From: Limisalsivibrio acetivorans | Lineage (GTDB): Bacteria > Chrysiogenota > Deferribacteres > Deferribacterales > Geovibrionaceae | Reading direction: 5' to 3' | Length of the DNA: 64,000 nucleotides | Assembly: GCF_000421105.1 (NCBI RefSeq) | Contig: NZ_ATWF01000002.1 | Location: forward strand, 186,001 to 250,000 | Part shown: positions 37,944-47,925 of the stretch, piece after piece | Position numbering within the stretch: position 1 is the first letter of the stretch | Layout: every line of letters starts with the position of its first letter | The notes under the pieces: model-generated | The model's database searches: none | What the model saw: only the letters and a program-made list of their open reading frames with translations | Told to the model about the DNA's origin: nothing | Position numbers and translations under genes: made by a program

Positions 37944-38642
37944 ATGAAGATACTGATAGCGGAAGACAACCCGGTCAACCAAATGGTGACCAAAAAGATT
38001 ATAGAGAAGCTCGGTGCGGAGGCAAGCATTGCCGGAAACGGTGTAGAGGCTGTGAAAATGGCCGCCGGCACCAGCTTTGATCTGATCCTTATGGATATAA
38101 ATATGCCCGAGATGAGCGGCATAGAAGCAACACTTGCTCTGAGAGGTAGAGGGTATGACAGGCCCATTTATGCAATGACCGGAGATTCCGGCGAAGAAGC
38201 CGAGCAGGAGCTGGAAAGCGCAGGGATTGACGGATTCCTGAGCAAGCCTGTAAACCTGAAAAAACTTGAGGAGACCATTATGAAGTATTCTAACAATAAC
38301 CAGGAATTCGATGATCCTGAGAAGAGTATAGAGCATGTTATGACCCAGCTCGGGCTTGACAGGGATACGATACAGGAGCTTATGGGCGAGTTTATAAAGG
38401 ACAGCATGAAGCATCTTGTGCCCCTGAAAACCGCAGTTGATTCCGGCAACCTGAATGTGACAGCCACCGAAGCACACTATATCAAGGGTGCCGCCCGCAA
38501 TATGGGCGTAAACATAATTGCTGAGAGTGCGGAAAGGCTGGAAAAAACAGCCAAGAGCGAGATGGACGAGAATTACGCAGCCCTTTATGAAGACCTTGAA
38601 ATTAAGCTGAAAGGGCTTCGGGATAAGGTTGAAAACGGTTAA
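37944..38642 (+). CDS. Receiver-Hpt phosphorelay protein
   Basis: A 232-residue protein. The receiver domain (1-118) has Asp51 ('LILMDINMPEMSGIEA') and the lysine in 'FLSKPVN'. A histidine phosphotransfer domain (about 130-228) has His178 in 'EAHYIKGAARNMG'. I use the second ATG (37944), spaced 7 bases from GGAG; an ATG two codons earlier is too close. There is no kinase or output domain, so it should act as a relay intermediate. Convergent with, and overlapping by 4 bases, the multi-PAS kinase, its possible partner. Confidence 0.85.
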   Translation: MKILIAEDNPVNQMVTKKIIEKLGAEASIAGNGVEAVKMAAGTSFDLILMDINMPEMSGIEATLALRGRGYDRPIYAMTGDSGEEAEQELESAGIDGFLSKPVNLKKLEETIMKYSNNNQEFDDPEKSIEHVMTQLGLDRDTIQELMGEFIKDSMKHLVPLKTAVDSGNLNVTATEAHYIKGAARNMGVNIIAESAERLEKTAKSEMDENYAALYEDLEIKLKGLRDKVENG

Positions 38643-41600
38643 CCCGTACTGCTGAAGTCGATGACGAAAACGGCCCCCTCATCCTCATTGCGGAGGGTGA
38701 GCTTCCCATTCATATTTTCCTCGATAATGGTTTTTGACATACTGAGACCTATGCCCGTCCCATTGTTCCCTTTATTGGAGACATAGGGTTCAAAAACTTT
38801 TTCGATAATATCTGCCGGAACCCCTCCCCCGTTATCAGCCACTTCAAGGCGGTTTACATTCTCATCCGATACGAACCTGAATTCGATAACGCCGTGGAAT
38901 ACGCCGCCTCCGGCCTTCCTCGCAGCTATGGCATCCTTTGCGTTTGAGATAAGGTTGAGTATAACCTGCTTAAACTCGTTTATCTGCCCCACAACACTGA
39001 GATCATTATCCCCTGTTACTCTGGTTTCTATCCCCGCCTGCTCAAGCTGGGGCTTAAGAAGCTTTATAACATCGGAAACGGCTTCATGTACATCGAAGCT
39101 CTTAAGCTCCTTGCCGGGCTTAAAGAAGTTCCGGAAGTCGTCCATAGTCTGGTTCATAAACTCAACCTGCTTCATAATATCACCAGCAAGGCTCAACATA
39201 TCCTCTCGGTTGGGGCTGTCTTCATCAACAAGCTCAGGCATGAACTGAGCGATAAGATAAACGGCGTTAAGCGGCTGTTTCCACTGATGGGCGATAACAC
39301 TTATCATCTCACCCATACTTGCCATCTTTGACTGCTGGATAAGCATCTGCTCCTGCTTCTCCTGTTTCTCCTCCAGCTCTTTATGCACAGTTATATCCTG
39401 AACCGTGGTAACGATAACCTCTTCGCCGTCCGTCATCATTATCTTCGCCAGGGTTGCATTGACAATAATCTGGTTGCCGTCCCGCCTAAGACATGTCCAA
39501 GTGGAGGGGAAGCTGTCAATCAAACCGTCTGCAAACTGGGAATAGAGCAGAACACACTGCTCTCTGAGGGACTGAGGGAGCACTATGGAGAAATGCCTCC
39601 CCTTGAGCTCCTTCTTTGTATAACCGAAGATACTGCAGTAGCTGTCATTCATGGTTATAAACCTGCCGCTCGGCTCTATGAGGCAGATACCGATGGCTGC
39701 GGAGGAGAAGGCGGCTTCCATAATATTATCGCTCCTCTCCTTTTCGCTCTGTAGATTTTTTATCTGGCGCATATCACGAAGAGTAGTTATCGCTGCCTTC
39801 CGTCCATCCAGCTCCACAAGGTTCGAGGTAAGCTGGGCATCCACGACGCTCCCATCCCTGGCCCTCAGCTTCGCATTGAAAAGAATGTGCTCCCCTTCGA
39901 ATATCTCCTTTGCATACTCCTTTATCTTCGGTATCTCGGACTCAATATGGAAATCCTTCGGGCTCATGTTTAAAAGTTCCTCACGTGAATAGCCGAACAT
40001 GGAACAAACCCTGTCATTGACTTCTGTGAAAGTGCTTGGGATACCGTTTTCGTCAAAGTAGTGGACGATAAGCCCTTCATTGATGGAATTAAAAAGGAAC
40101 TCATATTTAAGCTCACTCTGCAACCTGTGCTTAACCTCTTCCTCTGCCATGGCGGAAAGCTCTTCATTCATAGATCTTAACGTCCTTTCCAGCTCCTTCT
40201 GATCGCTAATATCCACACCGATACAGACAAACCCCTCAAGAATTCCCGAGCTGTTCTCAACCCCTACCCTCACAAAGCGGTACTCACGCTCTCTACCGTT
40301 AATATCTACACTGCACTCCCATTCATGATAATCCCGACCCGCAAGCTCTCTGGAGCAAACCGAGGTGTCCATACCAAGCCTTTGGGCAAAGTGAACACCT
40401 TTAAGCCCGCCTGTATCTTCAGGGAGCTCCGCAGCGGACTTAGCCGAACTGTTGGCAAATATGATGTTATCTTTTATGTCCGTATAGATCATCAGGAGGG
40501 GAGTATTATCCATAATCGTTTTCAGAAGGCGAGACTGGGTGTTAAGCCTCTCCTCCATAATCTTTTTCTCATGAATGTCGGTTACGATGGAAAAAAGATA
40601 CTTCTCACCGCCAATATCCACAGGGCTCGAATGAACCTCTACATTCCTCAGCTCTCCTTCTGCAAGCCTGTGGGTGAATTCGAAGGTATTAAGTTTATTG
40701 TCGAGGGCATTCGCCATAACGAGCATAACGTTCCCTTCAGAACAGTTAATATCGCTGATATTCATGTTTCTCAGCTCTTTAAGAGAATAACCGTAGTATT
40801 CAGCTGCGGCTGAATTTGCATCAAATACTTCGCCGGTAAAAGGATTAATGAGGAGCATGACGGCGCTGTGCCCATAAAACAGATTGCGAAAATGCCGCTC
40901 ACTCTCGGCTATTGTCTCGAAGCGTTCCTCCTCGCCTGTTATATCCGTAAATGAAACAGCCGTTAAATCATCCTCGCCATAGAAATCGGCGATATCGATG
41001 AGAAATACCCGTTCCTCGCCGCTACGGGAGTCTTTCATAACAGCCTTGCTCTCCCTGCCCATCTCCTTGTTCTGGATTACCTTGTTCGTCCATTCCCGAA
41101 GATTGTTTCCATGGATATAGCCCTCCTTTTCAAGAAAGAACTCGCAGATGCAGTCATGTTCGCTTTTAAAGGTTTCCTCATCATCATAGCCCAGGAATTC
41201 GAGCACGCGCCTGTTACAGCTGAGCATCTCTGCTCCGTCAGTAACAGTAACCATATTCGGCTGCATATCAAGCATCCGGAACTTTATCTTCTGTTCGGCT
41301 CGAAGCCTCCTCAGCGTTCTGCTTCGGTCATACACCAGATAAATGGTGATTAAGAGCATACCTGCTGTAAAGATAATAACCAGGATAGTTTTCTTGTGGG
41401 ATCTTTCATGGGCAACCAGGGAGTCTGTACTATTGCGAACCAGCTCTTCCCAAACCACAATCTCTGCATTTTCAAGACAGTTGGAGGAATAATCCGTAAG
41501 ATCAAAGAAACGACGCCTGGTATCAGTTGTATATACAAGGTTTTTGTCATTCAGCCGATTTTCAAGCTCTGCTATACTGTTCTTCAGTATATCAACACAT

Positions 41601-41878
41601 TCAAAATCGCTTGTGCCTGCAAGGTTCAGATAACCCAAAGCCCTTCCCAGCTTATTGATGGCGGTATCGAGATAGTAGCTCCGGGGGTTTGAGAGACCGC
41701 TTTCATAAAATGAATAAGACTCGCCGATAAGTGACTTAGCATAAAGAAGATACCTGCTTTCCTCCTTCGTGTTAAAATCCACAGCATGCAAGTTTATATA
41801 TTGGGAATTGATCCTTAAAAGGATTAGGGCAAGAACAGCAAAAAGAAGTGCAACAGGTAAGATTCTTCGCAGCTTCAC
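38639..41878 (-). CDS. Membrane sensor histidine kinase with five predicted PAS domains
   Basis: A 1079-residue kinase. One membrane segment lies at about 5-23, a helical periplasmic sensor at about 24-162 and a second membrane segment at about 163-184. Then come five PAS-like regions (roughly 200-320, 325-440, 445-560, 590-705, 715-835), each with a recognisable 'GY..EEL' or similar core, for example 'CSIFGYTKKELKGRHF'. The kinase core has His864 in 'VIAHQWKQPLNAV', the HQWKQPLN type, then an N-box 'QVILNLISNAKDAI' and G-box 'GNNGTGIGLSMSKTIIEE'. No receiver or Hpt is attached. PAS boundaries are estimates; ligands are unknown. Confidence 0.88.
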   Translation of the reverse strand: MKLRRILPVALLFAVLALILLRINSQYINLHAVDFNTKEESRYLLYAKSLIGESYSFYESGLSNPRSYYLDTAINKLGRALGYLNLAGTSDFECVDILKNSIAELENRLNDKNLVYTTDTRRRFFDLTDYSSNCLENAEIVVWEELVRNSTDSLVAHERSHKKTILVIIFTAGMLLITIYLVYDRSRTLRRLRAEQKIKFRMLDMQPNMVTVTDGAEMLSCNRRVLEFLGYDDEETFKSEHDCICEFFLEKEGYIHGNNLREWTNKVIQNKEMGRESKAVMKDSRSGEERVFLIDIADFYGEDDLTAVSFTDITGEEERFETIAESERHFRNLFYGHSAVMLLINPFTGEVFDANSAAAEYYGYSLKELRNMNISDINCSEGNVMLVMANALDNKLNTFEFTHRLAEGELRNVEVHSSPVDIGGEKYLFSIVTDIHEKKIMEERLNTQSRLLKTIMDNTPLLMIYTDIKDNIIFANSSAKSAAELPEDTGGLKGVHFAQRLGMDTSVCSRELAGRDYHEWECSVDINGREREYRFVRVGVENSSGILEGFVCIGVDISDQKELERTLRSMNEELSAMAEEEVKHRLQSELKYEFLFNSINEGLIVHYFDENGIPSTFTEVNDRVCSMFGYSREELLNMSPKDFHIESEIPKIKEYAKEIFEGEHILFNAKLRARDGSVVDAQLTSNLVELDGRKAAITTLRDMRQIKNLQSEKERSDNIMEAAFSSAAIGICLIEPSGRFITMNDSYCSIFGYTKKELKGRHFSIVLPQSLREQCVLLYSQFADGLIDSFPSTWTCLRRDGNQIIVNATLAKIMMTDGEEVIVTTVQDITVHKELEEKQEKQEQMLIQQSKMASMGEMISVIAHQWKQPLNAVYLIAQFMPELVDEDSPNREDMLSLAGDIMKQVEFMNQTMDDFRNFFKPGKELKSFDVHEAVSDVIKLLKPQLEQAGIETRVTGDNDLSVVGQINEFKQVILNLISNAKDAIAARKAGGGVFHGVIEFRFVSDENVNRLEVADNGGGVPADIIEKVFEPYVSNKGNNGTGIGLSMSKTIIEENMNGKLTLRNEDEGAVFVIDFSSTG

Positions 41879-42027: not shown

Positions 42028-42867
42028 TCAAAATTTGATTATTCTGCGATGGAGAGAGGAAAAAAGGCCTGCGGTTATGCCAAACAGATCGGCTGTTCCT
42101 CCCATTGTCAGATTGATTGCCTTAAACTTTTCATTCATATCAATAAGTTCGTTGAATGGTACATCGCCCCTTTCCAGGAGTGCCCCTAGCCTGAAGCCGG
42201 AGTTTCTTAGGGTGGTGAGCCCCTCGATACCGCATCTTTTCACAGCGGTACTGTCCTCGGTTACACTCATCAGCTTAGCCAAACAGTGGAATGCGGCCAA
42301 GGGGTAGTTGTCAGTTTCCTCGTATACGCTGAACATAACGGGTAGAGCTTTATCTAAAACCGTGGGAAGACCGTTTAGGCACTCCCCCCTGATACCCCCT
42401 ATTCCAGCCTCCTTCCTCACAGCTGCCCCGCAGGAACCGGGCTCACGCTCATCCTTAAAAAGTGATGCAGAGGCCTCGGCGCATCTTTCTGACAGTTCAC
42501 AAAGGGAAGGGATACCGGAACATCTGGAATAAGCATCCGTCAGAAGCCCCATGAGGAAGATAAAGCCCTTGTGGGTATTCGTTCCAAGGAGGCTCATCAT
42601 CCGCTCCTCCGCCCTTATTCCCGCCTGAACCATATCATCAAGGCTTTTCGCCGATACGAGTTCTGCCCTGTACTCCTCAAGGAGACAAATGGAGCGAGAC
42701 ATATTCACAAGGTTGAGATCCTCATGGGAACCGGAATCGAGCAGATCCACTAGCCCCGGCTTCGGGGTAAGATAAAGCTCGGTCCTCGCACCTTGAACTA
42801 TGTGTGCAAGAAAACTGCTAAGCTGTTCTTTATGCGATTCTTTCGGCTCTTTTATTAAGGAGTTCAA
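42028..42867 (-). CDS. citG: Triphosphoribosyl-dephospho-CoA synthase CitG
   Basis: CitG makes the precursor of the citrate lyase prosthetic group from ATP and dephospho-CoA. The 279-residue protein has the diagnostic 'LTPKPGLVDLLDSGSHEDLN' (about 33-50) and 'LGTNTHKGFIFLMGLL' (about 92-107). I start at the TTG at 42865-42867 because GGAGG lies 6 bases before it; the first ATG in frame (42888) lacks a ribosome site. Either start overlaps the end of citX. Last gene of the operon. Confidence 0.9.
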   Translation of the reverse strand: MNSLIKEPKESHKEQLSSFLAHIVQGARTELYLTPKPGLVDLLDSGSHEDLNLVNMSRSICLLEEYRAELVSAKSLDDMVQAGIRAEERMMSLLGTNTHKGFIFLMGLLTDAYSRCSGIPSLCELSERCAEASASLFKDEREPGSCGAAVRKEAGIGGIRGECLNGLPTVLDKALPVMFSVYEETDNYPLAAFHCLAKLMSVTEDSTAVKRCGIEGLTTLRNSGFRLGALLERGDVPFNELIDMNEKFKAINLTMGGTADLFGITAGLFSSLHRRIIKF

Positions 42868-43375
42868 GGGCAGCCTCCGCAACCTCATCTATACTGTGCC
42901 TCTTCAGCCGCATGCACTCTTTGGCGGGCTCACTGCATACAAGACACCTTCGCTCCGGCTTTGCAACGGCGCTCCTGCTCACTATGCCGTCGCTGGTGTA
43001 TATATCTATATCCAGAAGCCTGTGCTCTGCGATAGATTCCTCAATGAACATCATGCTGTTCTTGGCCCCATATGGGTCGCCGAAGCCCGAGTAAACCTTG
43101 AACGGCCCCAGCGCATCCTCCATGGAGCAATCCTTCTTAAGCCCCACAGGGAGGGACTCCACCAAAGCCGCCCCGTTTTTTGCCAGCTCCGCCGCACCCG
43201 GTGGCATCTTCACCACACCGGGGATATTCATGGAGAGCGTTACTATAAACGCCCTCCCCTCACGGGCTGGCCTCCCTGCAAAACGTTCAAGGGAGTTGCG
43301 CAGGCACATGTCTATACGTTTCTGCCTGTCATCACGACAGGCGAGGATGCTATTCCTTAACCCGTCGTACTGCAT
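42830..43375 (-). CDS. citX: Apo-citrate lyase phosphoribosyl-dephospho-CoA transferase CitX
   Basis: CitX attaches the prosthetic group to the acyl carrier subunit CitD. The 181 residues carry the family signature 'HRLLDIDIYTSDGIVSRSAV' followed by 'PERRCLVCSEPAKECMRLKRHS' near the C-terminus. Overlaps citF by 26 bases and citG at the other end, so it is translationally coupled. The ribosome site GGAAG is 9 bases before the ATG. Confidence 0.9.
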   Translation of the reverse strand: MQYDGLRNSILACRDDRQKRIDMCLRNSLERFAGRPAREGRAFIVTLSMNIPGVVKMPPGAAELAKNGAALVESLPVGLKKDCSMEDALGPFKVYSGFGDPYGAKNSMMFIEESIAEHRLLDIDIYTSDGIVSRSAVAKPERRCLVCSEPAKECMRLKRHSIDEVAEAALELLNKRAERIA

Positions 43376-44888
43376 CTATGATACTTCCATCTCTGTATTC
43401 AATAACTGCGGCCACATCGTCCTCGAACTCCAGCGGTCTGGGAACGCCTGTTATAGCCTGTATCTCATTCTTTAGCTGAACGATATCCTTAACGGGGAAA
43501 CGTCTCTTCTCAAGCTCACGCCTCAGTTCCGCCTGACGCTCGTTCACAGCTATACCCCGCTCGGTGATGATAACATCAACGGTTTCTCCAGGTGTGGTAA
43601 CGGTGGTGACACTGTCCGTAACTATGGGAAGCCTTCCTCTAATGGAGGGAGCTGTAATAATGGATAGCTTTGCGCCGCTGGCCGTGTCGCTGTGTCCGCC
43701 GGTGTTATGCAGAAGGTAGCCGCTCGATTCGGTGTTCACGTTCACGTTGAAGTCAACATCCACCTCGGTTGCACCGAGGATAACAGCATCGAGCCTGTCC
43801 ACAACGCATCCAGCGTTAAAGGGGTTCGCATACATATCCGCACTCATCTCGATATGGTTTATGTTGCGCCCTATGGAATCCACAGCCTTCAGGTCGAAGC
43901 ACTGTACATCGAAGAGGGTTTCGAATATCCCCTCCTCCAGCATATCAACGAAGTATCCTGTTATGCCGCCGGAGCCGAAGCTCCCCTTTATGTCATCATT
44001 CTTCATAATTCTGCGAACATTCTCCGCAACGGCAAGTGATATGCCGCCGCTTCCGGTCTGGAAACTGAAACCGTCTTTGATAAGTCCAGAAGCTTCGATA
44101 ACCCCTGCGGCGTATTTCGCAATCTGCAAACCAACAGGGTCGGTGGTCACTCTCGTTGTGGTGGATACGATCTTTGATGGATCGCCGAGGGTATCCACAA
44201 CAACAACGTGGTCCACCTCGGTCTCTGCGATGCTGATAGGGTGACAAGGATACGGGACGAGGTTATCGGTAACTGCGATTACCTTGTCCGCATATAGTGC
44301 ATCGGTATGGGCATAACCAAGGCTTCCGCAAGCGGAAGGTCCGTGGTATCCGTTCATGTTGCCGAATTCGTCGCATGAGGGTGCGCCTATGAAGGCAACA
44401 TCTATCTTTATCTCCCGGTTCATAACCGCTCTGGCACGTCCGCCGTGGGTACGAACCACAACGGGTGAATCTATCTCCCCCTTGGAGAGTGCCTCACCTA
44501 TTGGTCCATTCACACCGCACTCGAAACCCGTTATCACACCCTCTTTTATGTAGGGTATCAGACCTGCATGCACAGGGTGGATGGAGCTTGAGGCTATCTT
44601 GATGTCTTTTATACCGAGGGAGGCTATCTCCTCCACCACCTGCATGAGAACATGGTCGCCGTTACGCAGATGGTGGTGGGTGGCGATGGTCATTCCGTCC
44701 TTAAGGCCGGAGGCCTCCACAGCCTCCCGGATCGAGCTGAGCATCTTGTTGGGTCTGCCGTAGGAGTATCTCAGCTTTCTGGTGGCTCTGTCTCCGCTGG
44801 GGATAACCTTGCCAACACCCTGAAAGGGTATGCTCTTCCTTCCCGCAAAATTCTCCGGTATATATCTTCCAAGCGAGTTCTTTATCAT
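43350..44888 (-). CDS. citF: Citrate lyase alpha subunit (citrate:acetyl-ACP transferase)
   Basis: CitF moves citrate onto the carrier as citryl-ACP, releasing acetate. The 512-residue length is normal. Family sequences are 'PFQGVGKVIPSGDRATRKLRYSYG', 'IATHHHLRNGDHVLMQVVEE', 'GPSACGSLGYAHTDALYADKVIAVTDNLVPYPCHPISI' and 'VITERGIAVNERQAELR'. The start overlaps the citE stop by 4 bases. Subunit of the cytoplasmic CitDEF complex. Confidence 0.96.
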   Translation of the reverse strand: MIKNSLGRYIPENFAGRKSIPFQGVGKVIPSGDRATRKLRYSYGRPNKMLSSIREAVEASGLKDGMTIATHHHLRNGDHVLMQVVEEIASLGIKDIKIASSSIHPVHAGLIPYIKEGVITGFECGVNGPIGEALSKGEIDSPVVVRTHGGRARAVMNREIKIDVAFIGAPSCDEFGNMNGYHGPSACGSLGYAHTDALYADKVIAVTDNLVPYPCHPISIAETEVDHVVVVDTLGDPSKIVSTTTRVTTDPVGLQIAKYAAGVIEASGLIKDGFSFQTGSGGISLAVAENVRRIMKNDDIKGSFGSGGITGYFVDMLEEGIFETLFDVQCFDLKAVDSIGRNINHIEMSADMYANPFNAGCVVDRLDAVILGATEVDVDFNVNVNTESSGYLLHNTGGHSDTASGAKLSIITAPSIRGRLPIVTDSVTTVTTPGETVDVIITERGIAVNERQAELRRELEKRRFPVKDIVQLKNEIQAITGVPRPLEFEDDVAAVIEYRDGSIIDAVRRVKE

Positions 44889-45817
44889 GATTCACCCAAT
44901 TCGCCGTAAACAACGTTCTCGTCCGGCTCTTCGTCCACAAGCCCGAGGGCGTAGGCGGTCTTGACCACACGCAGGGCACGCTTAACCACGGGGGCATCGA
45001 TCATCTTGCCGCCAAGGGCGATAACGCCGGTACCCATCTCCCTCGCCTTCTCTATGGCATCGATAACCTGCAGTGCGTAATCGATCTCCTCCTGCTTAGG
45101 AGCAAATACGGAGTGTACAACCTCTATCTGTCTCGGGTTTACAAGGGATTTGCCTGTGAAACCGAGGCTCTTGATCAGCTCACACTCGTTAGTGAAGCTC
45201 TCCATATCCGCAACATCGGTGAAGACTGTATCCACAGCCTGTATGCCAGCCGCCTTGGCCGCCCATACCACTCTCGTCCTTGCGTGGAATAGCTCCTCAC
45301 CAGTTTTTGTTCTATCGATCTCAAGGCTCGCCGTATAGTCCTCCGCACCGAAGGCGAGAGCCACAATACGGCTGGACGCCCTTGCTGTTCTAATACAATT
45401 GATAACACCCTGGGCGTTCTCAATGGAGGGGAGTATCCTGAAGGTCTCCAGCTCGAATCCCAATTCCTCCTCAAACTCTGTGAGCACGGTATCCAGCTTC
45501 TCAACGATCTCCGGCGTGTCCGCCTTGGGCAGGCGTATCCCGTCCGGCTTTGCAGGCAGAACCGCCGCAAGGTCATCGTACCACCACTTCGTATCAAGAC
45601 CGTTTATCCGGATGAAGATCTCCACATTGCGCTCTTTGAAGGTGTCCAGAAAGGAGCGTACAAGGTTCCTCGCCGCATCCTTCTCATTTACGGGAACTGC
45701 ATCCTCAAGGTCGATAATCACAGCATCGGACTGGAATATCGGTATATTCTGGAGCATGGAGGGCATGTTCCCCGGTACGTACAGGAGCGACCTGCGTACA
45801 TTCATCTCTTTGCTCAT
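44885..45817 (-). CDS. citE: Citrate lyase beta subunit (citryl-ACP lyase)
   Basis: CitE splits citryl-ACP to oxaloacetate and acetyl-ACP. The 310-residue protein has the HpcH/HpaI TIM-barrel features 'RRSLLYVPGNMPSMLQ', 'DAVIIDLEDAVPVNEKDAAR', 'FIRINGLDTKWWYDDL' and 'ALAFGAEDYTASLEI', with Glu and Asp metal ligands. Overlaps the upstream PPC gene by 4 bases. Confidence 0.96.
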   Translation of the reverse strand: MSKEMNVRRSLLYVPGNMPSMLQNIPIFQSDAVIIDLEDAVPVNEKDAARNLVRSFLDTFKERNVEIFIRINGLDTKWWYDDLAAVLPAKPDGIRLPKADTPEIVEKLDTVLTEFEEELGFELETFRILPSIENAQGVINCIRTARASSRIVALAFGAEDYTASLEIDRTKTGEELFHARTRVVWAAKAAGIQAVDTVFTDVADMESFTNECELIKSLGFTGKSLVNPRQIEVVHSVFAPKQEEIDYALQVIDAIEKAREMGTGVIALGGKMIDAPVVKRALRVVKTAYALGLVDEEPDENVVYGELGES

Positions 45818-46290
45818 TCCTCCGCCTCCGATATAAATATTGTTGAAACACCGCCGGACTGGGAATGATGCCTCTCTATACCCTTAACTATGATCTCGGC
45901 GATGATAATCTCGCATGTGGCGAATACGTTGCAGTCGAAGAGGTGTCCCCCCACAACCTCGCCGGAGGACTTTGCCCCGATGATGTGCAGGTGGGTATCT
46001 ATAAGCCCCTCCTCATCGGGGAAGATGTTCCCCTCAAGGCCGAGGAGCTCAAGGGGCCCCTCTATCTCATGGGCGGTGGTTCTGGGTCTGGTGATGGGGA
46101 GCTTCGCCCCCGTCTTTATACCCCGGAAGCGGACATCCTTAACGGAGCCCACTGCGGATACGATGGATGCGTTGCTCAGGTTTACCTCGCTAGCAAACTG
46201 GAGCAGATGATCACGCAGGTTCTCCCCCGGGCTTATCTTCAGGACGAAACGACGCCCCTGGGTGTATTCCTTATACCAGTGTCCATGCAT
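45814..46290 (-). CDS. PPC-domain (DUF296) protein inside the citrate lyase operon
   Basis: A 158-residue protein made of one PPC (plants and prokaryotes conserved, DUF296) domain. It shows 'RRFVLKISPGENLRDHLLQFASEVNLSNASIVSAVGSV', 'GNIFPDEEGLIDTHLHIIGAKSSGEVVGGHLFDC' and 'EIIIAEI'. The three histidines in DTHLH...GGHL match the metal-binding site seen in bacterial and archaeal PPC structures. No AT-hook, so it is not a plant-type DNA binder. It sits 1 base after citD and overlaps citE by 4 bases, fully inside the operon. It is not part of the citrate lyase sets I know. Function unknown; regulator or metabolite/metal binder are guesses. Confidence 0.85.
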   Translation of the reverse strand: MHGHWYKEYTQGRRFVLKISPGENLRDHLLQFASEVNLSNASIVSAVGSVKDVRFRGIKTGAKLPITRPRTTAHEIEGPLELLGLEGNIFPDEEGLIDTHLHIIGAKSSGEVVGGHLFDCNVFATCEIIIAEIIVKGIERHHSQSGGVSTIFISEAEE

Positions 46291-46291
46291 A

Positions 46292-46558
46292 TCAGTCCTC
46301 CAGCCCTGCCCGCTGTACTGCGGAGCTGAGCCTCGCCTTTATGGCATAATCAAGGGCTCCCCTGTCCGCAATGCGAATGTATCCTTCGCTTACGTCATTG
46401 GCGGCGAGCTCCTCCTCAACGGCGGCTCTAATAAGATGCTCAAACTGTTTCGCCACGGTTGATTCCACCTCTATCTCAAGGGAATCCGAGGGCTCCACAA
46501 ATACCATAAGGTCGCTGGACTGCATTGTTCCGGCCTGGGCCGGTGATTTGATCCTCAT
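46292..46558 (-). CDS. citD: Citrate lyase acyl carrier protein (gamma subunit)
   Basis: CitD carries the phosphoribosyl-dephospho-CoA group. The 88-residue protein starts 'MRIKSPAQAGTMQSSDLMVFVEP', where the serine of 'GTMQSSD' is the usual attachment site, and ends with 'GALDYAIKARLSSAVQRAG', typical of the family. 33 bases after citC. Confidence 0.94.
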   Translation of the reverse strand: MRIKSPAQAGTMQSSDLMVFVEPSDSLEIEVESTVAKQFEHLIRAAVEEELAANDVSEGYIRIADRGALDYAIKARLSSAVQRAGLED

Positions 46559-46591: not shown

Positions 46592-47617
46592 CTAGTGCCT
46601 TGTCTTTCTCTCTTTAAGTCGCTGAACCACCTTGAAGCCTGCCTCCGAAGACAGGAATTTCCATGTGGATGCAGGTACAAGCTCCTTCGCTCTGTCAAAG
46701 TCATTAATCCGCAGAGCCTCCCTTACTGCCGAGGCGCTCACAGCAATACCGTTCTGCTCATACCGCTCTATCTCGCAGAACTCCATGCCGTTCCTTCGCA
46801 GGGATCTACCCATCGCCTCGTTGTATGCGCATGTTACGCCGCAGTAGGGCTCGCTTCCGGCGTATCTTGTACCTATGTGGAAGAATGGGGCGATATGGCG
46901 GCAGAATATATCAAGGTCCATCTCCATCTGTATGGAGGAAGTATCCGTGCCGCTTTTCAGGAAGTATGATGGAAAGGTTATACCGCTCACCGCATAGGAG
47001 GATGCGCTCATTACGGTTACGTTGTCAAGATCCTCAGTCCCGTCCTCTACAAGCTTGAGACGTACATCAAAGGGGAAGGAGGAGGCGTCCTCCTGAACAA
47101 CGAAGATATAGAGGTGTTCACTCCTTGATGCGGCCTCTTCTATGAGCTTTCTATGCCCCATGGTGAAGGGGTTGCAGTTCATCACGATACCGCCGTTTCC
47201 CTTATCCTTGAGGGGTTTGTGCACAAGCTCACGGTGACGGTTGAGATACCTTGAAATACCCCGTCCGTACTCCATCATAACCGCCTTCTCATGCCTTGCC
47301 AGCGGATGGAAGTTCAGCCTGGAGAAGCTTACGGCATACTCGGGCTTGGTGAAGAGGAAGAAGTCACGCACGCCAGAATCGAAGCCGTCCTGAACGAGGC
47401 TTGTGGCCACATCGCCCACAGCATCGGTGCTGGAGCAGTCGGGGTGTACGGCAAACATCTTCAGGATGTTTCCAGCCCTTGCGCCTACCGCTGTGAGGCG
47501 CCGGTTCTCGAAGATACCCACAAGCCTGTCGTGGTCAGCCTCGTAGCTGAGGCCGTGGAGGCTTAGAAGTTCCTTTGCGGACTGTCTGTCGTGCTCGGCA
47601 AGAAGCTCTGTTACCAT
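46592..47617 (-). CDS. citC: Citrate lyase synthetase ([citrate (pro-3S)-lyase] ligase)
   Basis: CitC acetylates the prosthetic group with acetate and ATP to activate the lyase. The 341-residue form starts at ATG 47615-47617 (AAAGGGG at good distance); a TTG seven codons earlier lacks a site. An N-terminal acetyltransferase-like domain (about 1-130, 'TAVGARAGNILKMFAVHPD') is followed by a nucleotidyltransferase domain with 'IVMNCNPFTMGHRKLIEEAA' (TxGH motif) and 'SASAVREALRINDF'. First gene of the operon. Confidence 0.95.
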   Translation of the reverse strand: MVTELLAEHDRQSAKELLSLHGLSYEADHDRLVGIFENRRLTAVGARAGNILKMFAVHPDCSSTDAVGDVATSLVQDGFDSGVRDFFLFTKPEYAVSFSRLNFHPLARHEKAVMMEYGRGISRYLNRHRELVHKPLKDKGNGGIVMNCNPFTMGHRKLIEEAASRSEHLYIFVVQEDASSFPFDVRLKLVEDGTEDLDNVTVMSASSYAVSGITFPSYFLKSGTDTSSIQMEMDLDIFCRHIAPFFHIGTRYAGSEPYCGVTCAYNEAMGRSLRRNGMEFCEIERYEQNGIAVSASAVREALRINDFDRAKELVPASTWKFLSSEAGFKVVQRLKERKTRH

Positions 47618-47925
47618 CGTGCACCCCTTTCGGTTCAAACATAGGGGCTTGAACCTATAAATAGAACATATTCCAAAGATTTTGGCACTTCCATAGAAAC
47701 TTAAAACGGATCCCGCTTAAAACAGATTTCTATTTACAAAATCGTGTTTATTTATCTGATATTAAGGATTTTTCGTAAAGAATCGAGAGCGTTTAGGTCA
47801 AAAAAAAAGTGCTATGAAGGGAATCTGGTTCACAATTATGTTTTCAAATACCTGTTGTACAAAGGGCTTTTCAGCTTGCTTTTTAATCCGGAATGCAAAT
47901 TTACATAATTAATTAAGGAGAAACG
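47618..47925. other. Upstream region of the citrate lyase operon
   Basis: About 300 AT-rich bases between citC and the hydrogenase operon terminator. I see no gene, no clear FNR- or CRP-like palindrome, and no CitB-type site I could defend. No citAB two-component genes flank the operon, so its regulator is not apparent here. Confidence 0.5.

Follow-up and report, generated by a model that had tools for sequence, protein, structure and literature searches.

The 64,000-nucleotide stretch of Limisalsivibrio acetivorans DNA analysed here (the window) carries a citrate lyase operon in the order citC-citD-PPC-citE-citF-citX-citG, in which a gene of the PPC/DUF296 family is placed between the genes for the acyl carrier protein and the beta subunit (Table 1). 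The PPC gene starts 1 base past citD and has four bases (ATGA) in common with citE, with a GGAGGA ribosome site immediately 5' of the gene and GGAGG-type sites at the locus. A complete PPC gene in this position had been reported in the initial annotation and is confirmed by open reading frame and Pfam searches, with the protein matching PF03479 (PCC/PPC) at 93.2 bits (cut-off 25) over residues 13–133, and with citC, citD, citE, citF, citX, and citG (all three subunits and the maturation genes) all above their Pfam cut-offs. It is the single PF03479 gene in the genome and no NCBIfam model matched its product. CitF and CitD pass the NCBIfam equivalog cut-offs, while CitE (337 bits against TIGR01588, cut-off 443), CitC, CitX, and CitG fall short, which first hinted that this operon is part of a divergent branch. 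CitG scores slightly higher with the model for MdcB of malonate decarboxylase (140 bits) than with the CitG model (128 bits), both below cut-off. Directly downstream of citG is a gene for a histidine kinase with several PAS domains.

Table 1. Genes of the citrate lyase operon and its downstream flank, in window coordinates
Feature	Position	Strand	Remarks
citC, citrate lyase ligase	46592..47638	minus	acetylates the prosthetic group
citD, citrate lyase acyl carrier protein	46292..46558	minus	88 aa; prosthetic-group Ser (= Klebsiella Ser14) in AGTMQSSD
PPC/DUF296 (PF03479) gene	45814..46290	minus	158 aa, ATG start; H100/H102/H116 metal-site motif
citE, citrate lyase beta subunit	44885..45817	minus	4-base overlap with PPC
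citF, citrate lyase alpha subunit	43350..44888	minus	
citX, holo-ACP synthase	42830..43375	minus	
citG, triphosphoribosyl-dephospho-CoA synthase	42028..42888	minus	
Histidine kinase	38639..41878		1079 aa

Distribution and descent of the PPC-containing operon

The order citD-PPC-citE-citF was found in 25 operon copies from 24 genomes in four phyla, with the PPC gene always between citD and citE. The recurrence across phyla that the initial annotation had proposed to look for is therefore present, and the number of copies excludes an arrangement restricted to a single strain as well as a chance insertion or strain oddity. Within the phylum of the window (51 genomes; the Deferribacterota, going by named contigs from its family), a close PPC was present in all ten genomes encoding a full-length CitF and in none of the 41 CitF-negative genomes; the PPCs of these ten genomes have 59–67% identity and all lie between citD and citE. 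In a scan of named genomes, this gene order reappeared in a Myxococcales MAG, Anaeromyxobacter oryzae, a Desulfuromonadales MAG, and a Rhodocyclaceae MAG, and further PPC genomes were identified in the phylum of the Desulfuromonadales MAG (three), the phylum of Anaeromyxobacter (one), and the family of the Rhodocyclaceae MAG (six). Spacing across the PPC operons ranges from −4 to +3 bases between citD and PPC and from −20 to +5 bases between PPC and citE (the start in genome G053 is uncertain). In genome G1243 (L189, L193), the citC ligase gene is absent upstream of citD and from the remaining contig sequence read.

In about 960 genomes, searched with either the PPC query or a profile, every cit-type PPC detected (at least 200 bits) lay within a cit operon, and the best PPC after the cit-type reached 104 bits and is located near genes for an aldehyde ferredoxin oxidoreductase and amino-acid-type transporters. 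Likewise, 72,556 plasmid records contained no PPC relative, though CitF-like sequence occurred in 91 of them. A general tendency of PPC genes to be drawn to particular catabolic genes was considered and rejected, as about 40 other PPC loci share no common neighbour; the 78 ORFs flanking these loci are distributed over 72 Pfam families, none of which occurs in more than three members, and the link to the cit genes is thus specific. The next closest PPCs (L129:4920-7715, L130:3406-3882, L131:3671-4183, and L133:4988-5470) occur in other organic-acid catabolic loci, with neighbouring genes for aldehyde ferredoxin oxidoreductase, aldehyde dehydrogenase, a TPP-dependent dehydrogenase, and TRAP/branched-chain-type transporters.

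Phylogenetically, the CitE proteins of the PPC operons form one clade (100/100 support), as do the cit PPCs (100/100), which are separate from the 21 other PPCs in the tree, while the corresponding CitF clade consists of 18 PPC rows and one truncated row (genome G836). PPC is absent from the classical cit operons of Klebsiella, E. coli, Enterococcus, Fusobacterium, and others. CitF proteins from operons without PPC, a set including Klebsiella, E. coli, Enterococcus, Streptococcus, Fusobacterium, Azospirillum and Rhizobium plasmid records, seven genomes from the phylum of the Desulfuromonadales MAG, and four Myxococcota, share 40–53% identity with the window CitF, compared to approximately 67–73% for the full-length CitF of the PPC group. 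Judged by these sequences, the citrate lyases without PPC are other branches. The sole apparent case of PPC loss within the clade, G836 (L171:5343-7317), has a collapsed cit locus, with citC residues 1–224 joined to citF residues 72–511 and citD, PPC, and citE missing through either a deletion or an assembly collapse, and is uninformative on this point. The order within the CitF clade departs from that of the species, with a Desulfuromonadales row grouping with a Deferribacterota genome and a Rhodocyclaceae row with the Myxococcota, which probably reflects transfer of the operon between phyla, the PPC gene being retained.

Among ten diverse operons, median pairwise identity is 75% for CitE, 72% for CitF, 67% for CitD, 59% for PPC, 50% for CitC, 42% for CitG, and 38% for CitX. 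The PPC value falls between those of CitD and CitC, and the protein thus evolves at a subunit-like rate, nearer to the lyase subunits than to the maturation enzymes. Approximate within-genus dN/dS values (Nei-Gojobori) for PPC are ~0.03–0.12, with 0.47 for one more distant pair. Thirty-five residues are invariant across the 25 PPC copies, including R13, K18, K59, R70, H74, E81, H100, H102, C126, E127, E132, and R140. The three-histidine metal site described in the initial annotation is intact in the window (H100, H102, and H116), but the third histidine is not universal, as two of the 25 copies (G1213 and G1243; L188:7568 and L189:7544) have glutamine in its place (GGQ for GGH). These two PPCs are otherwise conserved in sequence and their citDEF genes look intact, making the Gln116 forms a natural test of the need for the third histidine. 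In the Rhodocyclaceae MAG (G052), a 3208-bp block comprising exactly citD-PPC-citE-citF is present twice with 99.9% identity (L041:6715-9922 and L042:6715-9922); the flanks of the two copies differ and the second copy is without citC, citX, and citG. An assembly artefact is a possible, though with these differing surroundings less likely, source of the duplication.

The recurrence across phyla and the subunit-like rate uphold the earlier view of the PPC gene as a built-in part of the operon, and it is very probable that one clade of citrate lyase operons has PPC as a fixed and dedicated component. Our literature search found no paper joining citrate lyase with DUF296 or the PPC domain, and a citrate lyase type with a dedicated PPC component is an addition to the operon that we found described nowhere. 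For a textbook enzyme with a gene set that was thought complete, one branch spanning four phyla has fixed an extra protein. We know of no function for the PPC/DUF296 family in bacteria.

Fold and possible functions of the cit PPC

An AlphaFold2 model of the window PPC (mean pLDDT 92.9) has the PPC fold. When ranked by fold, seven solved PPC proteins come first (Z 16.4–19.6), followed by acetolactate decarboxylases (Z 7.8–9.2) and human PTD012 (Z 5.5), while unrelated rows reach at most 3.9. Acetolactate decarboxylase (PF03306), an enzyme with zinc held on three histidines, aligns with the model over about 115 residues, though the PF03306 profile gave no match to the window PPC, for which PF03479 was the only match at E up to 0.001. 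PTD012 (C11orf54) likewise holds zinc by three conserved histidines and hydrolyses the acetyl ester p-nitrophenyl acetate; it has been recognised since 2025 as a beta-ketogulonate decarboxylase, and its kinship to acetolactate decarboxylase is noted (PMC12435205). With these two as the next folds, the PPC fold has beta-keto-acid decarboxylases as its neighbours of known enzymatic activity. The initial annotation had suggested a role at stoichiometric level and gave as conceivable examples a metal or cofactor binder, an accessory subunit, and a protein stabilising citryl-ACP or the CoA-derived group. The modelled fold, together with the contrast in gene neighbourhood described below, points at least as strongly to an enzyme, whether a thioester hydrolase or a beta-keto-acid decarboxylase, as to a passive metal or cofactor binder.

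Citrate lyase yields acetate and oxaloacetate, and the latter is a beta-keto acid. It appears somewhat more probable than otherwise that the cit PPC is an enzyme acting on the lyase's own product or intermediate in this one clade, either by decarboxylating oxaloacetate or by deacetylating acetyl-CitD. On the strength of the related folds, the conserved histidines, the place in the operon, and the absence of any known oxaloacetate decarboxylase gene in the neighbourhood, we rank first, as a tentative assignment, a soluble, metal-dependent oxaloacetate decarboxylase associated with the lyase and acting next to CitE. Under this proposal, PPC would be a small metal-dependent enzyme of the PPC/acetolactate-decarboxylase/PTD012 fold acting beside CitDEF on the direct product, converting oxaloacetate to pyruvate and, as a soluble protein, taking the place of the OadABG pump or malic-enzyme-type decarboxylase of other cit operons. 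In this scheme, a metal held by the histidines would polarise the 2-keto group of oxaloacetate, the clade-specific basic residues K59, R70, and H74 would hold both carboxylates, and removal of oxaloacetate would pull the reversible cleavage of citrate forward; the presence of a metal, the identity of the substrate, and any contact with the lyase complex are all inferred.

Genes for enzymes that can decarboxylate oxaloacetate, represented by OadA, OadB, malic enzyme, or FAH-type proteins, are nearby at none of 24 PPC loci compared to nine of 18 loci without PPC, a contrast that is suggestive rather than a statistic because the PPC operons form one clade and represent approximately a single evolutionary event. 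Among the loci without PPC, OadA is found in Fusobacterium, OadAB in Streptococcus equi, and Oad in Klebsiella; malic enzyme occurs in Enterococcus, Secundilactobacillus, and three genomes from the phylum of the Desulfuromonadales MAG, and the Azospirillum locus has both malic enzyme and a fumarylacetoacetate-hydrolase-family gene. Genome-wide, the OAD beta subunit is absent from 15 of 18 PPC genomes and is encoded elsewhere in the window genome, G018, and G052. The modelled likeness of PPC to acetolactate decarboxylase is one of fold only, which counts against a decarboxylase, and the two Gln116 members count against a simple enzyme. The insertion site between citD and citE would equally suit a protein acting on the CitD thioester.

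Such a protein would be the citrate lyase deacetylase (EC 3.1.2.16), for which we know of no assigned gene. As a metal-dependent thioesterase stripping acetyl from the prosthetic arm of CitD, PPC would turn the lyase off once citrate runs out and stop a futile cycle with citrate synthase, with CitC re-acetylating the arm; we regard this identification as rather unlikely. Citrate synthase is encoded in all 18 PPC genomes tested, making the futile cycle possible, in that an unregulated lyase could drain acetyl-CoA. PPC adjoins citD, and Met-Gln immediately precedes the modified Ser14 of CitD in 17 of 17 PPC operons tested and never in operons without PPC, which mostly have Leu/Val-Glu at these two positions; however, CitE and CitF likewise carry clade-specific residues, so the Met-Gln pair may reflect ancestry only. 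The activity of the same-fold PTD012 on an acetyl ester (PMC12435205) is consistent with a deacetylase, while the H116Q substitution in two members counts against it. The deacetylase itself is known biochemically from Rhodopseudomonas gelatinosa and R. palustris, according to the title of a reference in PMC11204750.

A non-catalytic subunit of CitDEF, in the form of a trimeric scaffold, an effector sensor, or a metal-citrate binder that stabilises or tunes the complex, would account for an evolutionary rate near that of the structural subunits, the tight coupling to citD and citE in all genomes, the tolerated loss of the third metal histidine, and the duplicated block in which PPC is kept with the subunits and not the maturation genes. 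This, too, we regard as rather unlikely, as H100, H102, E81, and E127 are invariant in all 25 PPCs, suggesting a working site, the fold relatives with known roles are enzymes, and classical citrate lyases function without PPC. The AT-hook is the DNA-binding part of plant AHL proteins, and the cit PPC sequence has none, consisting of a PPC domain alone. Despite the 'putative DNA-binding protein' label on PDB entries 2hx0, 3htn, and 3hwu, it is very improbable that PPC is a DNA-binding regulator of the operon, since the gene is positioned mid-operon and translationally coupled to the lyase subunits instead of being apart or divergent.

The substrates and intermediates of citrate lyase are all known, so the function of PPC is directly testable by a simple enzyme assay. 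An enzymatic role, if borne out, would to our knowledge make this the first PPC/DUF296 protein with a catalytic function, and would provide either a soluble oxaloacetate decarboxylase of a new class, linked to citrate cleavage, or the gene still missing for a deacetylase described decades ago.

Comparison with known citrate lyases and PPC proteins

The classical citCDEFXG operons of Klebsiella, E. coli, and Enterococcus have the same genes in the same order and a CitD with the modified serine, though in the Klebsiella stretch seen citX is elsewhere or absent. These operons are without PPC, and their CitF and CitE are 47–48% and 41–45% identical to those of the window, respectively. The CitD motif differs between the two types, with the classical AGTLES(S/N/G)D contrasting with AGTMQSSD in every PPC operon tested. 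Oad or malic enzyme genes are located near the Klebsiella and Enterococcus operons, while there are none in the E. coli stretch and none at the PPC operons. The deacetylase (EC 3.1.2.16) of Rhodopseudomonas (Rubrivivax) gelatinosa would have the same complex as its target, in bacteria that possess citrate synthase, its identity with PPC being hypothetical.

At 158 aa, the cit PPC is shorter than the aligned acetolactate decarboxylase and PTD012 chains (>218 aa) and does not match them in sequence. The PF03479 proteins AF0104 (2h6l) and PH0802 (2dt4) share both the fold (Z 19–20) and the HxH...GGH motif with the cit PPC, at 24–29% identity in the aligned structures. The cit PPCs differ from ordinary PPCs in forming their own clade (100/100), in their clade-specific basic residues, and in their fixed operon context.
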